NCBI GenBank assembly: GCA_013538855.1
Contig: JABXJS010000067.1
Coordinates: 1-50,740 of the forward strand
Reading direction: 5' to 3'
DNA length: 50,740 bases
From: Herpetosiphonaceae bacterium
GTDB taxonomy: Bacteria > Chloroflexota > Chloroflexia > Chloroflexales > Herpetosiphonaceae
Below, one piece after another: positions 41,616 to 46,627 of the stretch; position 1 is the stretch's first letter, and each line of letters opens with the position of its first letter. The position numbers and the translations under genes were made by a program. The notes under the pieces were generated by a model, which saw nothing but the letters and a program-made list of their open reading frames with translations, was not told where the DNA came from and made no database searches.

Positions 41616-44156
41616 TTAGATCCGAAAGCGCCGCTTGAGCAGCGGATGCAGCGTCTGTCTGAGGAAGGTGCGCCAGCCAGCCTGGCCTGCTAGCGGATCG
41701 CTGGCGCACACAGCATTTGGCAGCGTGAGCGCATCGCTAGCGATATCGACGACAATCTGCTCTGGCGGGCCAAGCAGGAGCGCCTCGATCGATTGCTCGG
41801 CGGTGCTATTTGGCTCGAAGGCTGCATCGAGCACGAGCTGCTCATCAATGCGATAGCTCACCGGGTACACCTGGTTGCCATCATCGTAGCTTGGTGGCAG
41901 AAAGACCTGCACATGGCAGCTTTGGCCAAGCTCAGGACTCCAGATGTTGGCAAGAATCAACATTGAGCCGACATTGGGCTGCTGCTCAAGCCACTCCAAC
42001 GGCAGTGCGCTAGGATCGGCTTGCAGCTCTGTTGGCTGGCGGGACTGCTGGGCCAAGAGCACGAGTGAGCGCCCGGCGAGTGGGTAGGTGTGGTCATCAA
42101 ACAGATGTGGATCGGCGGTTGACTGGGATGTATCAAGCAGCACGTGCCACGCCTGCTGCGGCTGAATAGTTGGCAGGACGAAAGGAATCTGCTGATGATC
42201 GGCGTTCATCAGCAGCAGCAAGACATCATCGCTAACCGGGTTACCCTCGGCGTCTAGCTCCTCCATGCACAGACCATTGAGCAGCATGCCGATGCAGCGC
42301 ACAAAGCTGTAATCCCACTCATCATCGCTCATCATCTGGCCATCCGGGCGATACCACTCGATGTCCTTGATATCGTGGCCGTGAATTGCGCGGCCCTGAA
42401 AAAAGTAGCGCCGATGCAGCACAGGATGTTGTTTGCGCAGCTGGATGAGGCGCTGCGTCCAATCGAAGAGCGCCTGGCCTTGTGCGGTCCACTGCCAGTC
42501 GAACCAGCTTAGCGGCGTATCTTGGCAGTAGACATTATTGTTGCCCAGCTGGGTGCGATTGCACTCATCGCCGTAGAGCAGCATCGGCACGCCTTGGGAG
42601 AGTAGCAGGGTGGCTAAAAAGTTACGCTGCTGTTGGGCGCGCAGCGCATTGACGTGCGGATCAGCGGTTGCGCCCTCGATGCCACAGTTCCAAGAGTTAT
42701 TGTGGGCTTCGCCATCGGTGTTGTTGTGGCCATTGGCCTGATTATGCTTATGATTATAGCTGACCAGATCGTGCAGCGTGAAGCCGTCGTGAGCGGTGAC
42801 AAAGTTGATGCTCGCATACGGGCTGCGGCCGGTGTTCTGATACAAATCGCTTGAGCCGCTCAGGCGATAGGCTAGCTCGGCGACCTGCGACTCGTCGCCT
42901 TTCCAGTAGCGGCGCACAGTATCGCGATAGCGCCCGTTCCACTCGGCCCAGCCGACGGGGAAGTTACCGACCTGATAGCCGCCTGGTCCAACATCCCACG
43001 GCTCGGCGATGAGCTTCACCTGCGAGAGCACCGGATCCTGGTGGATGATATCGAAGAAAGCCGAGAGGCGATCACCCTCGTACAGACCACGGGCGAGGGT
43101 GGCGGCGAGATCGAAGCGAAAGCCATCGACGTGCATCTCAAGCACCCAGTAGCGCAGGCTATCCATCACGAGCTGGAGCGTGCGTGGATGCAGCATATTG
43201 AGCGTGTTGCCGGTGCCGGTGTAGTCGAGATAGTAGCGTGCGTCGGGCATCAGGCGATAGTACGTTGCATTATCGCAGCCCTTCATCGAGAGCGTGGGGC
43301 CAAAGTGATTGCCCTCGGCGGTATGGTTGTAGACGACATCGAGAATCACCTCGATGCCAGCCTTGTGCAAGGTTTTGACCAGCTGCTTGAACTCCTGCAC
43401 TGTCTGATGCGGTGATTGCGAGCTGCTGTAGCGTGGCTCGGGAGCGAAGTAGCAAAGGGTATTGTAGCCCCAATAATTGCGCATCCCCTGCTGGACGAGG
43501 TTATGATCATCGATAAAGGCGTGGATGGGCATCAGCTCAACAGCAGTGATGCCAAGCGCTTGGAGATAGTCGATGACTGGCGGGCTAGCGAGGCCGGCGT
43601 AGGTGCCGCGCAGCTCTGGAGGTATCCCCGGATGCTGAGCGGTCATGCCCTTAACGTGCAGCTCATAGATGATTGAGTCGTGGAGCGAATAATTGAGCGG
43701 CGCATCGTCCTCCCAGTCGAAGTCAGGGTCGATAACGACACAGCGGGGCAGATAGGGCGCGCTATCGAGCCGATTGAAGCTAAGATCGGCGTCGGGATCG
43801 CCGAGGCGATAGCCGAAGAGGGCATCGTCCCAGCTGAGCTGGCCGACGAGGGCTTTCGCGTAAGGATCGAGCAAGAGCTTATGGGGGTTGAAGCGATGGC
43901 CGTAGTTTGGAGCGTAGGGGCCATCGACGCGATAGGCATAGGTTTGGCCAGGCTTGAGACCGGCGATATAGCCGTGCCATACAAAGTCGGTGTACTCGGT
44001 AAGGCTGACGCGGATGCTTTCGCGCGGATCGGTAGGATGTTCGAAGAGGCACAGCTCGACGGCGGTGGCATGTTCGGAGTAGAGCGCGAAGTTTACGCCA
44101 GCGCCATCCCAGGTTGCACCGAGGGGGTATGGGACGCCAGGTTGTAAGGATACCAT
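41616..44156 (-). CDS. glgX: Glycogen debranching enzyme GlgX with extra C-terminal domain
   Basis: The 846-residue product matches GlgX-type isoamylase (GH13). An N-terminal CBM48-like part ([22 protein letters not shown]) precedes the catalytic barrel. Likely residues are the nucleophile Asp in [15 protein letters not shown] (about 350), acid/base Glu in LIAEPWD (about 383) and Asp in FVTAHDGF (about 454). It cuts alpha-1,6 branches of glycogen. The protein extends about 130 residues beyond usual GlgX. The extra tail contains [12 protein letters not shown] and a terminal [16 protein letters not shown], echoing Esterase_D/Fes-type proteins, but no GxSxG is visible. Confidence 0.95.
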
Positions 44157-44248
44157 GAAAAAGACCTCTCATAGAGACACAGGTGGTCTCCTAAGCCAGC
44201 AGTATGTGGATGTAGCAATTGGAGTGCCAAGCAGCAGCAGAGAGGCAC

Positions 44249-44715
44249 AAAAAACCGCCGGTAGTTGCGCGGGGCAACTGGCGGTGGGGCAAAAGAATAA
44301 GCCCGGGTGATACAACCATACCAGCTTCAACACATACCAAGTAAACAAGCAGCTAGGTATCTGTGTATCGTCCGCGGCTGCCTGCCGCAGGGACACTGCG
44401 CAGGGGCTGGGCGTCGATACAACCCTCCCATTGCGGACCCTGCATGCTTTTGGTCTCGGTCAACGGGGGTCAGATATCGGCCTCACTCACACCAGAGCAT
44501 CGGGTGATTCATCGTCGTCGGTCAGTCACCGCACGCCCGTGTCACCAGGATGTCTTGGTTCACCTCCTCAACGAAACTAAAGATCCGTCTTTCCTTGAAC
44601 GTACGTCCAGCGCCACAGGCCAATCCTGTAGCTCATACCAACTGGCGCTAGTGAGTGAGGTTTTTGCTGCTTGTTTAGGTGCTGGGTTTTGTTGGTTGTA
44701 TCACCAACGGGCTAC
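44249..44715 (-). ncRNA. Candidate long structured RNA, class not recognised
   Basis: A predicted transcript of about 470 nt starts near 44715 and ends at a hairpin plus T6 near 44249. Its 5' and 3' parts pair by an AGCCCG-UU-GGUGAUACAACC strand (44694-44713) with 44300-44317: 18 base pairs with a 2-nt bulge. Inside, CCTCACTCAC (44651-44660) pairs perfectly with 44481-44490. Further stems are AGCGCCA (44609-44615/44643-44649), GTTCA (44558-44562/44596-44600), AAAGA hairpin (44579-44592), and GGTGA (44503-44507/44526-44530). RNase P and tmRNA signatures were not found. It may be an independent RNA or a leader of glgX. Confidence 0.6.
44255..44284 (-). terminator. Terminator at end of candidate RNA
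   Basis: On the minus strand CCGCCAGTTGC and GCAACTACCGGCGG form a stem (with a small bulge) around CCCGC, followed by six T residues (44249-44254). This fits Rho-independent termination or attenuation before glgX. Confidence 0.75.
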
Positions 44716-44721
44716 GCTGTT

Positions 44722-44750
44722 AATATAAATCTGCGAGCGTCGATAGTCAA
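44722..44750 (-). promoter_or_regulatory. Promoter of candidate RNA
   Basis: TTGACT (44745-44750) and TATATT (44722-44727) on the minus strand are 17 bases apart. The first nucleotides of the strong terminal helix begin only a few bases downstream of the predicted start. Confidence 0.7.
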
Positions 44751-44861
44751 GACATAGATCGTTGTTTGACGATGCTACCTTAAGATTTTTTATTTATCGC
44801 TTTAGAAAGCCCTGCTGAAACACATGGTCGTCAAACGATTAACCATGCCGCTCCAGGGGGG

Positions 44862-45665
44862 CTACGGATGCGATGAGGGATTCTTATCGGTGGTGCTTGC
44901 ACGTGGCTGTACGTGGCGATACTGGCCGGTGAGCGCATTCCAGCGAATCTTGAGCACATCAACCAAGTTGCGCCAGGAGTCGCGCACGGTGCTGACCTTG
45001 GTCTCTTCGCCGTAGCGCCAGAGGACGGGCACCTCGGCGATGTGGTAGCCACGGCGTAGCGCTAGGTATAGCACCTCAACATCGAAGGCGGTAACGGCGG
45101 CACCTTTAGGCGCAGCAGTTGTGTCGGTGTACAGGCGCAGCGCCTGAAATAAATCTTGTGCGGCCTCGGCGGTAAACACCTTGAACCCGCACTGGGTATC
45201 TTGAAAGCTGCCGACAGCGAGCAGGCGAACGATGAGGTTAAAGACGCGGCCCATAAAGTGGCGCAGCGGCGGCTCGTCGATGCGCTGCGCGCCTGCGCCC
45301 TCGCGCGAGGCGATCGCCACATCGGCACCATGGGAGAGCGCCTGCTCCAGCTTCGACCACTCGACAAGGGGCACGGCGAGGTCGGCGTCGGAGAAGAGCA
45401 CGAACTGACCAGTGGCAGCGAGCATACCCGTGCGCACAGCATAGCCTTTGCCGCGGTGCGGATTGCGGATGACACGAGCGCTTGGCTCGGCGGCGAGCGT
45501 CTGCTCGGCCTCGGTGGCGGTGGCATCGTCGCTGCCATCATCGACGACGATCAGCTCCCAATCCCATGGCTGCTGATGGAGGAAATCAAGCGTTTGGGTG
45601 AGCGTTTGCGGCAGGCGGCGTGCCTCGTTGTAGGCCGGAATGACAATTGACAAATATGGTTTCAC
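44862..45665 (-). CDS. Dolichyl-phosphate-type GT2 glycosyltransferase
   Basis: The 267-residue product is a GT2 enzyme of the dolichyl-phosphate glucosyl/mannosyltransferase (ALG5-like) type. Motifs are LSIVIPAYNEARRLPQTL, VVDDGSDDATA, VLFSDADLAVP, and TQCGFKVFTAEAAQDLFQ. Such enzymes make polyprenyl-phosphate-sugar donors. The GTG at 45663-45665 overlaps the upstream stop by 4 bases (GTGA) and has AAGGAG upstream. It is the last gene of a three-gene minus-strand set with an rfbD-like gene and a GT2 enzyme. Confidence 0.92.
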   Translation of the reverse strand: MKPYLSIVIPAYNEARRLPQTLTQTLDFLHQQPWDWELIVVDDGSDDATATEAEQTLAAEPSARVIRNPHRGKGYAVRTGMLAATGQFVLFSDADLAVPLVEWSKLEQALSHGADVAIASREGAGAQRIDEPPLRHFMGRVFNLIVRLLAVGSFQDTQCGFKVFTAEAAQDLFQALRLYTDTTAAPKGAAVTAFDVEVLYLALRRGYHIAEVPVLWRYGEETKVSTVRDSWRNLVDVLKIRWNALTGQYRHVQPRASTTDKNPSSHP

Positions 45666-46627
45666 GCAGGTCTCCTTGTCCAATCGTCGCCCAGCCAGGG
45701 AGCGAGATTCTGATGGTCAGTTGGGCTGAACTGCCGTTGTCGCCACACAGCAGGCAGGCGGCGAACGCCGGCCCACTGGCCGCGCAGGCGTGCGCGTGCA
45801 GCAGCTCCCCGAATGTGGCGGATGGCGGCCCAAGCGATTTTGAGCTGGGCGGCCATGAAGCGCGGCAGTGAGCGCCACAGCAGCGGCATAGGCATATTTT
45901 TGGCCCAGACCAGAATGAAGTTGCGTCCGCAGTAGTAGCTGGCGAGCACGCCACCGCCAGTGGCGCTGAGCTTATGGTAGACGATGGCTTGGGGCACAAA
46001 GAGCGTGCGCCAGCCGGCCCGGCGGGCGCGTAGATTCAAGTCAACATCCTCACAGTACATCACCAGCTGGGGATCGAAGACGGCCCCGGTCTGATCGGCG
46101 AGGGCTTGCAGCGTCTCGCGGCGGTAAGCAGCGGCTCCAGCACAGGCACCGAAGATCTCGCTGACAACATCGAACTGGCCGCGATCCTGCTGCCAGACGC
46201 CCCGGCTGAAGGGGACGCCATCCCAAGCGTAGCCATCGCCAGCCGAGTGCAGGTGATCGCGCTGATCGAAGAGGCAGAGCTTCGACGCAGCGACGGCGTA
46301 GCTCGGATACTGCTCTAGTGCGCCGACAAGCTGCTCTAGCCAGGTGGGGGCTGGCTCGGTGTCGTTGTTGAGCAGCACCACGAACGGGGCGGCGGTGGCG
46401 CGTATCCCCAGATTGACCGCCTGCACGAAGCCACCATTGTGTGGTGCGACGACGAGCTGCACCTCGGGGTAGTGCGTGCGAATGAGGGCGGCGGAGTCGT
46501 CCGTTGAGGCATCATCGACGACAGTGATGCGGAAATCGCGGCGCGTCTGTGCGCGTAGTGCTGCAAGGCAGGCGGGCAGCAGCTGTGCTCCATTGTAGTT
46601 GGGGATGATGACATCGATTGTAGTCAT
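45662..46627 (-). CDS. GT2-family glycosyltransferase
   Basis: The 321-residue product is a GT2 (GT-A) transferase. Motifs are IDVIIPNYNGAQLLPACL, TVVDDASTDDSAAL, LLNNDTEPAPTWL and CEDVDLNLRARRAGW. The C-terminal third is basic and includes a possible amphipathic membrane contact (MPLLWRSLPRFMAAQLKIAW). The ATG at 46625-46627 overlaps the upstream stop by 4 bases. A start 16 codons earlier is rejected. It probably adds a sugar to a lipid-linked glycan with its neighbours. Confidence 0.92.
   Translation of the reverse strand: MTTIDVIIPNYNGAQLLPACLAALRAQTRRDFRITVVDDASTDDSAALIRTHYPEVQLVVAPHNGGFVQAVNLGIRATAAPFVVLLNNDTEPAPTWLEQLVGALEQYPSYAVAASKLCLFDQRDHLHSAGDGYAWDGVPFSRGVWQQDRGQFDVVSEIFGACAGAAAYRRETLQALADQTGAVFDPQLVMYCEDVDLNLRARRAGWRTLFVPQAIVYHKLSATGGGVLASYYCGRNFILVWAKNMPMPLLWRSLPRFMAAQLKIAWAAIRHIRGAAARARLRGQWAGVRRLPAVWRQRQFSPTDHQNLAPWLGDDWTRRPA

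Follow-up and report, generated by a model that had tools for sequence, protein, structure and literature searches.

Large bacterial RNAs that have been studied, such as RNase P RNA, tmRNA, OLE, GOLLD and ROOL, are catalysts, ribonucleoproteins (RNPs) or RNA particles. To our knowledge, few bacterial RNA classes of such size and complexity have been described. GOLLD, ROOL and OLE, whose profiles were taken from Rfam, are all reported to form homo-oligomers; GOLLD and ROOL are carried by phages and prophages, close to tRNA islands, with a length of 659 nt for ROOL env-120 and often over 800 nt for GOLLD (PMC12286853). The smtA motif ('Soda Lake RNA') exceeds 350 nt and has a complex fold supported by covariation; it occurs in Thioalkalivibrio only and its function is unknown (PMC11109978). 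Within the Chloroflexota, the Chloroflexi-1 motif (RF01698) is specific to the phylum and was given for Chloroflexus aggregans (PMC2864571).

We analysed a 50.7-kb stretch of Herpetosiphonaceae DNA (the window) in which one gene-free gap quite probably encodes a structured non-coding RNA, about 465 nt long, that is free-standing and acts in trans. On balance we also favour the view that this RNA represents an undescribed class of large RNA throughout this family of predatory filamentous Chloroflexota, forming the core of an RNP or of an RNA-only particle and having its own regulator.

The locus and its homologues

The gap of 705 bases (44157-44861) lies between a GT2 glycosyltransferase gene and glgX. 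Every feature that an earlier note on this DNA had placed in it was found at the claimed position: the promoter, the 18-bp end-to-end helix with a 2-nt bulge (UU; 44712-44708 and 44705-44693 with 44318-44301), the perfect 10-bp long-range helix, the shorter stems nested inside, and the hairpin followed by T6. Coordinates and helix names (P1 to P11) are given in Table 1. The glgX start is 93 nt past the T-run of the RNA terminator. Just before the glgX start codon, an inverted repeat AGACC...GGTCT followed by TTTTT (44158-44189, minus strand) overlaps the likely Shine-Dalgarno sequence GAGAGG of glgX; it may control that gene as a small attenuator or as a hairpin acting on translation.

Table 1. 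Features of the RNA locus and its flanking genes (window positions; RNA elements in RNA letters)
Feature	Position	Strand	Remarks
GT2 glycosyltransferase gene	44862-45683		Upstream neighbour of the RNA in the window
Palindrome ATCGTCAAACAACGAT, putative operator	44758..44773	-	Conserved; upstream of the -35 box by exactly 7 bp in 8/8 genomes
Promoter TTGACT-17-TATATT, sigma70-type	44722..44750	-	Spacing of 17 kept in 8/8 genomes
Predicted full transcript, about 465-470 nt	44249..44718	-	5' end placed by the -10 box, 3' end by the terminator
Conserved RNA core, 420 nt	44301..44720	-	Counterparts of 411-416 nt in 7 further genomes align with it
P1 5' strand, GCCCG-UU-GGUGAUACAACCA	44693..44712	-	Closing 18-bp helix; covariation
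P1 3' strand	44301..44318	-	
P2 5' strand, CAGC	44681..44684	-	Pairs with 44322-44325; CAGU/ACUG in MGR_bin20 (L002)
P2 3' strand	44322..44325	-	Invariant unpaired UUGAA just before
P3 5' strand, UAAACAAGCAGC	44666..44677	-	12 bp with 44342-44353
P3 3' strand	44342..44353	-	
P4 5' strand, CCUCACUCAC	44651..44660	-	Perfect 10-bp helix
P4 3' strand	44481..44490	-	
P5 arm	44603..44648	-	P5a GCGCCAG/CUGG-A-CGU and P5b hairpin CUACAGG-AUUGG-CCUGUGG
P6 arm, GUUCA/UGAAC	44558..44600	-	GUGCGU/ACGCAC in Herpetosiphon
P7 domain, GACAU ... UGCUC	44495..44554	-	Apical hairpin; invariant CGGGC and GACGA
P8 arm, UAUCUG/CAGAUA	44358..44476	-	Encloses P9, P10 and P11
P9 stem, CCCGUUG/CAAUGGG	44427..44467	-	Inner GACC/GGUC
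P10, UGUAUCG/CGAUACA	44364..44421	-	Carries P11
P11 hairpin, CCUGC-GCAG...CUGC-G-GCAGG	44381..44404	-	
Intrinsic terminator, ACCGCCAGUUG...ACCGGCGGU then U6	44249..44285	-	Hairpin 44285-44254
glgX	41616-44156	same as RNA	CBM_48 and alpha-amylase domains

Homologous regions in related Chloroflexota, which the earlier note had proposed to look for, were found in the form of seven homologues in two other genera. In a blastn-type search of 60 relatives, the Herpetosiphonaceae MAG MGR_bin20 (second genus) had a 67% identical stretch (E 1.7e-19), and the six genomes of Herpetosiphon, the third genus (including H. aurantiacus DSM 785, H. geysericola, H. llansteffanensis and H. giganteus), each matched over a short conserved block (E 6e-5 to 0.016). 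Reading of the matched loci gave complete homologues of 411-416 nt; that of H. aurantiacus DSM 785 lies on the plus strand of record CP000875, at about 3,840,833-3,841,248. The RNA was thus present in 8 of the 9 Herpetosiphonaceae genomes, with one match each. No match was obtained in the ninth genome of the family (G001, 75% complete), where its absence may be a true loss.

Model searches of 82 genomes of the order, 158 of the class and 400 of the phylum returned family members only, plus weak partial matches at chance level in G045 and G279; few candidates were scored per genome in these large scans, so very diverged relatives could escape. Nothing convincing was seen among the other 73 Chloroflexales genomes searched. 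The P11 pattern matched 58 stretches over GTDB r220 and was genuine for Herpetosiphon and MGR_bin20 only. The phage and plasmid records searched gave no match, and pattern matches in viral contigs had chance-level scores. The RNA class is so far seen only in Herpetosiphonaceae. Such a narrow distribution could also be compatible with a dispensable element.

Transcription signals, fold and covariation

Across the eight genomes the palindrome reads ATCGTnAAnnnnCGAT, at an identical distance to the -35 box in all of them, and in Herpetosiphon it extends into a 12-bp inverted repeat. The promoter itself varies, with TTGACT-17-TATAGT at the MGR_bin20 locus (L002) and TTGTAG-17-TATATT in Herpetosiphon. 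The palindrome together with the strict promoter geometry suggests a putative operator of a dedicated regulator. Elsewhere, the palindrome-plus-TTG combination gave one second match, in three Herpetosiphon genomes; it lies inside a coding frame resembling zwf (G6PDH) and was therefore taken as a coincidence. At the 3' end, the MGR_bin20 locus has its own terminator after P1 (9-bp hairpin plus U7), and in Herpetosiphon, close to where a convergent gene ends, there is a strong hairpin whose U-tract is weaker. From these conserved signals we infer that the RNA is transcribed.

The fold of the locus had been claimed to exceed chance expectation, and folding of positions 44240-44720 bore this out: the minimum free energy was -193 kcal/mol vs. 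-163.9 +/- 6.5 in shuffled sequences (z = -4.5, with 0 of 100 shuffles as low). Two homologues gave z = -3.7 and -4.8. Covariation was then counted among the three genera at hand (the window organism, MGR_bin20 and Herpetosiphon). In a plain sequence alignment (MAFFT; A2), 67 in-register pairs were counted without refitting. Standard pairs made up 97.2% of the cells, vs. 34-39% when the 3' partners were slid by 1-3 columns. Changes on both sides were found in 27 pairs, compared with at most 4 after sliding and 8.9 +/- 2.2 in shuffles (0 of 500 reached the observed count); the six Herpetosiphon sequences are closely alike, so independent changes are fewer than these cell counts. The trimmed alignment A4, which adds P8-P10 in the Herpetosiphon register, gave 86 pairs, of which 93.5% were paired and 35 double-changed. 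When helices were registered by hand, compensatory changes appeared in 46 of 94 pairs, a structure-guided count that is biased towards the model.

Compensatory changes keep both long helices, the point on which the earlier note had proposed its covariation check. Five of the 10 counted upper pairs of P1 and 6 of the 9 counted pairs of P4 were changed on both sides. P4 is nearly wholly replaced base by base, reading CCUCACUCAC/GUGAGUGAGG in the window, ACUCAG/CUGAGU in MGR_bin20, and CAAAUUGAU/AUCAAUUUG and CACAUUGGU/AUCAAUGUG in Herpetosiphon. A leave-one-out covariance model (R3), built from six homologues with the window sequence excluded, gave a single match in the 50.7-kb window, at 44322-44684 on the minus strand, over the whole model length (153 bits, E 2.2e-39). 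This comparative evidence confirms that both long helices are evolutionarily conserved and settles that the structured locus is real. In most helices, selection maintains shape over sequence.

The predicted map supported by covariation holds at least 11 helices. The RNA would be closed on itself by the stacked P1-P2-P3, followed by two arms: P4, carrying P5, P6 and P7, and P8, carrying P9 and P10-P11. Near-invariant motifs were found in unpaired positions or internal loops (UUGAA, CGGGC, GACGA and CCCAGCC/CAGCCGC); the last two flank P11, in what is the best-conserved stretch of the whole RNA.

Two further pairings were noticed. A near-repeat, GATACAACC(A/C)T(A/C)CCA, occurs at window positions 44309-44323 and 44416-44430, and in the window's RNA only, the P1 5' strand could alternatively pair with the internal copy over 10 bp (UGAUACAACC/GGUUGUAUCG). 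A possible pseudoknot, GGGC(G/U) with (C/A)GCCC (44534-44538 with 44409-44413; A2 columns 194-198 with 327-331), would join the P7 internal loop to the base of P10 and is mutually exclusive with the inner P10 pairs; it shows one compensating column and one mismatch in MGR_bin20 (L002).

Possible roles of the RNA

In the mechanism we propose, the sigma70-type promoter beneath the palindromic putative operator would make the RNA, the intrinsic terminator would end it, and a regulator binding the palindrome would tune its expression. The folded RNA would act in trans as a scaffold, most likely one that binds protein. That it is the scaffold of an RNP with one or more proteins is the reading we put forward first, tentatively and by analogy.

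The RNA could instead self-assemble into an RNA-only particle in the manner of GOLLD, ROOL and OLE, with no dedicated protein needed. It resembles these homo-oligomer-forming RNAs (PMC12286853) in its size and ornate closed architecture, and its near-invariant internal-loop motifs might serve as quaternary contacts. We nevertheless consider this reading unlikely: no Rfam match was obtained at E 10, the locus is chromosomal and single-copy with no tRNAs in the window, the RNA was absent from the phage and plasmid records searched, and no conserved kissing loop was identified.

Rather less probable is a protein-titrating or mimic RNA that sequesters a regulator, like 6S RNA or CsrB, and is switched on via the palindromic operator. 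The regulated-looking promoter with its conserved palindrome and the invariant loop motifs would fit such a role. However, we saw no recurring loop motif shared between the genera, 4 of 4 genomes tested encode 6S RNA itself at another locus, and the nested fold is more elaborate than a sponge needs.

We give little credence to a ribozyme, a ligand-binding RNA or a dual-function RNA with a frame for a short peptide, even though invariant unpaired motifs are present. No self-cleaving family scored above noise (Hairpin ribozyme model, E 0.16). As to a peptide, the longest open frames differ in position between genera, and no open frame is common to all homologues. A frame open for up to 13 codons, ending at an invariant UGA (A2 columns 206-208), is indel-free in the three genera, but it has no common start codon, P6 and P7 account for its conserved letters, and the homologues have no longer frame in common.

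The earlier note had left two readings side by side, a free-standing RNA and a long cis-acting leader of glgX. The first of them is supported by the intrinsic terminator. The second has in its favor that glgX is on the same strand and starts close by, but the terminator stands between the RNA and glgX, and the RNA is conserved in MGR_bin20 and Herpetosiphon despite a different, convergent downstream gene. The gene next downstream is glgX in the window only and a convergent membrane protein gene in the 7 other genomes; upstream, Herpetosiphon has a Ser/Thr kinase gene. MGR_bin20 is intermediate, with the upstream glycosyltransferase as in the window and the downstream membrane protein as in Herpetosiphon. 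This mixed neighborhood indicates that the RNA locus is orthologous while its neighbors changed, and the retention of the RNA through these changes favors action in trans and makes a glgX leader very improbable.

The reading with the least to commend it, to the point of being negligible, is a strongly diverged form of one of the known housekeeping RNAs (RNase P, tmRNA, SRP, 6S or Y RNA), which the size near that of RNase P and tmRNA and the paired ends might suggest, but RNase P, tmRNA, SRP and 6S RNAs are at other loci of the same genome and Y RNAs lie beside the Ro60 gene.

Comparison with known RNA families

Over the whole window, Rfam 15 gave no match at gathering scores; when E values up to 10 were admitted, the window and two homologous loci (L002 and L006) still had no credible match. 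Together with the strong covariation, this outcome supports the earlier proposal of a new or unrecognised RNA class, which had asked for an Rfam search. A miRNA-model match on a terminator hairpin was spurious, and the Poribacteria-1 match and the Hairpin ribozyme match, which overlaps the promoter edge, were noise. The GOLLD, ROOL and OLE profiles had no match at E 10 for the window or L002, and L006 gave chance models only.

The earlier note had seen none of the fixed motifs of RNase P RNA and tmRNA. RNase P RNA (RF00010), which it resembles in a length of about 400 nt and paired ends, had no match at the locus; the organism's own copy is at G000:C137 (full length, 1-367; 64.8 bits, E 4.7e-19, below the Rfam cut-off of 100). 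Chloroflexales RNase P RNAs (L021-L024) scored 64-80 bits with RF00010 and are therefore missed by Rfam default thresholds. No tmRNA (RF00023) match was found at the locus either, and the tmRNA is at G000:C114 (183.5 bits). The organism's SRP RNA (RF00169) is at G000:C102 (66.2 bits) and its 6S RNA (RF00013) at G000:C5 (71.8 bits); the fold at the locus is multi-branched, not the single long bulged hairpin of 6S RNA.

Ro60-associated Y RNA (YrlA) was rejected as well, as the Ro60 gene and tRNA-like RNAs are at other loci. Ro60 is present in the complete genomes of the family and also in 9 Chloroflexales genomes without the long RNA. The TROVE/Ro60-like protein of Herpetosiphonaceae is 547-555 aa long, and its gene is closely preceded by one or two tRNA-like RNAs of 107-149 nt (L116-L122). 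These RNAs (e.g., L119 2512-3173 and L117 2603-2995) match the tRNA model with insertions and YrlA weakly, and are probably bacterial Y RNAs.

In the literature searched, which covered few subscription papers and supplementary motif lists, we found no description of such an RNA from Herpetosiphon. The RNA is single-copy, with clear boundaries and a map of at least 11 helices, and one of its hosts, H. aurantiacus DSM 785, is culturable and has a complete genome, so its expression, partner and structure are directly testable.

Like the smtA motif, the RNA combines a large, complex, covarying fold with restriction to one narrow lineage; the smtA motif differs in lying upstream of smtA and in another lineage, and the two were compared via Rfam 15 only, which may not include it. 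The Chloroflexi-1 motif is likewise lineage-restricted in the Chloroflexota, and its Rfam model has no match at the locus. Like GOLLD, ROOL and OLE, the RNA is a large and ornate bacterial RNA that runs to several hundred nt and keeps its secondary structure conserved, whereas GOLLD and ROOL are longer and phage- or prophage-borne and the Herpetosiphonaceae RNA is chromosomal and single-copy with no tRNAs in the window. It is called new because it shows homology to none of the families tested; as a large structured non-coding RNA of unknown function, it joins an already known kind of discovery.
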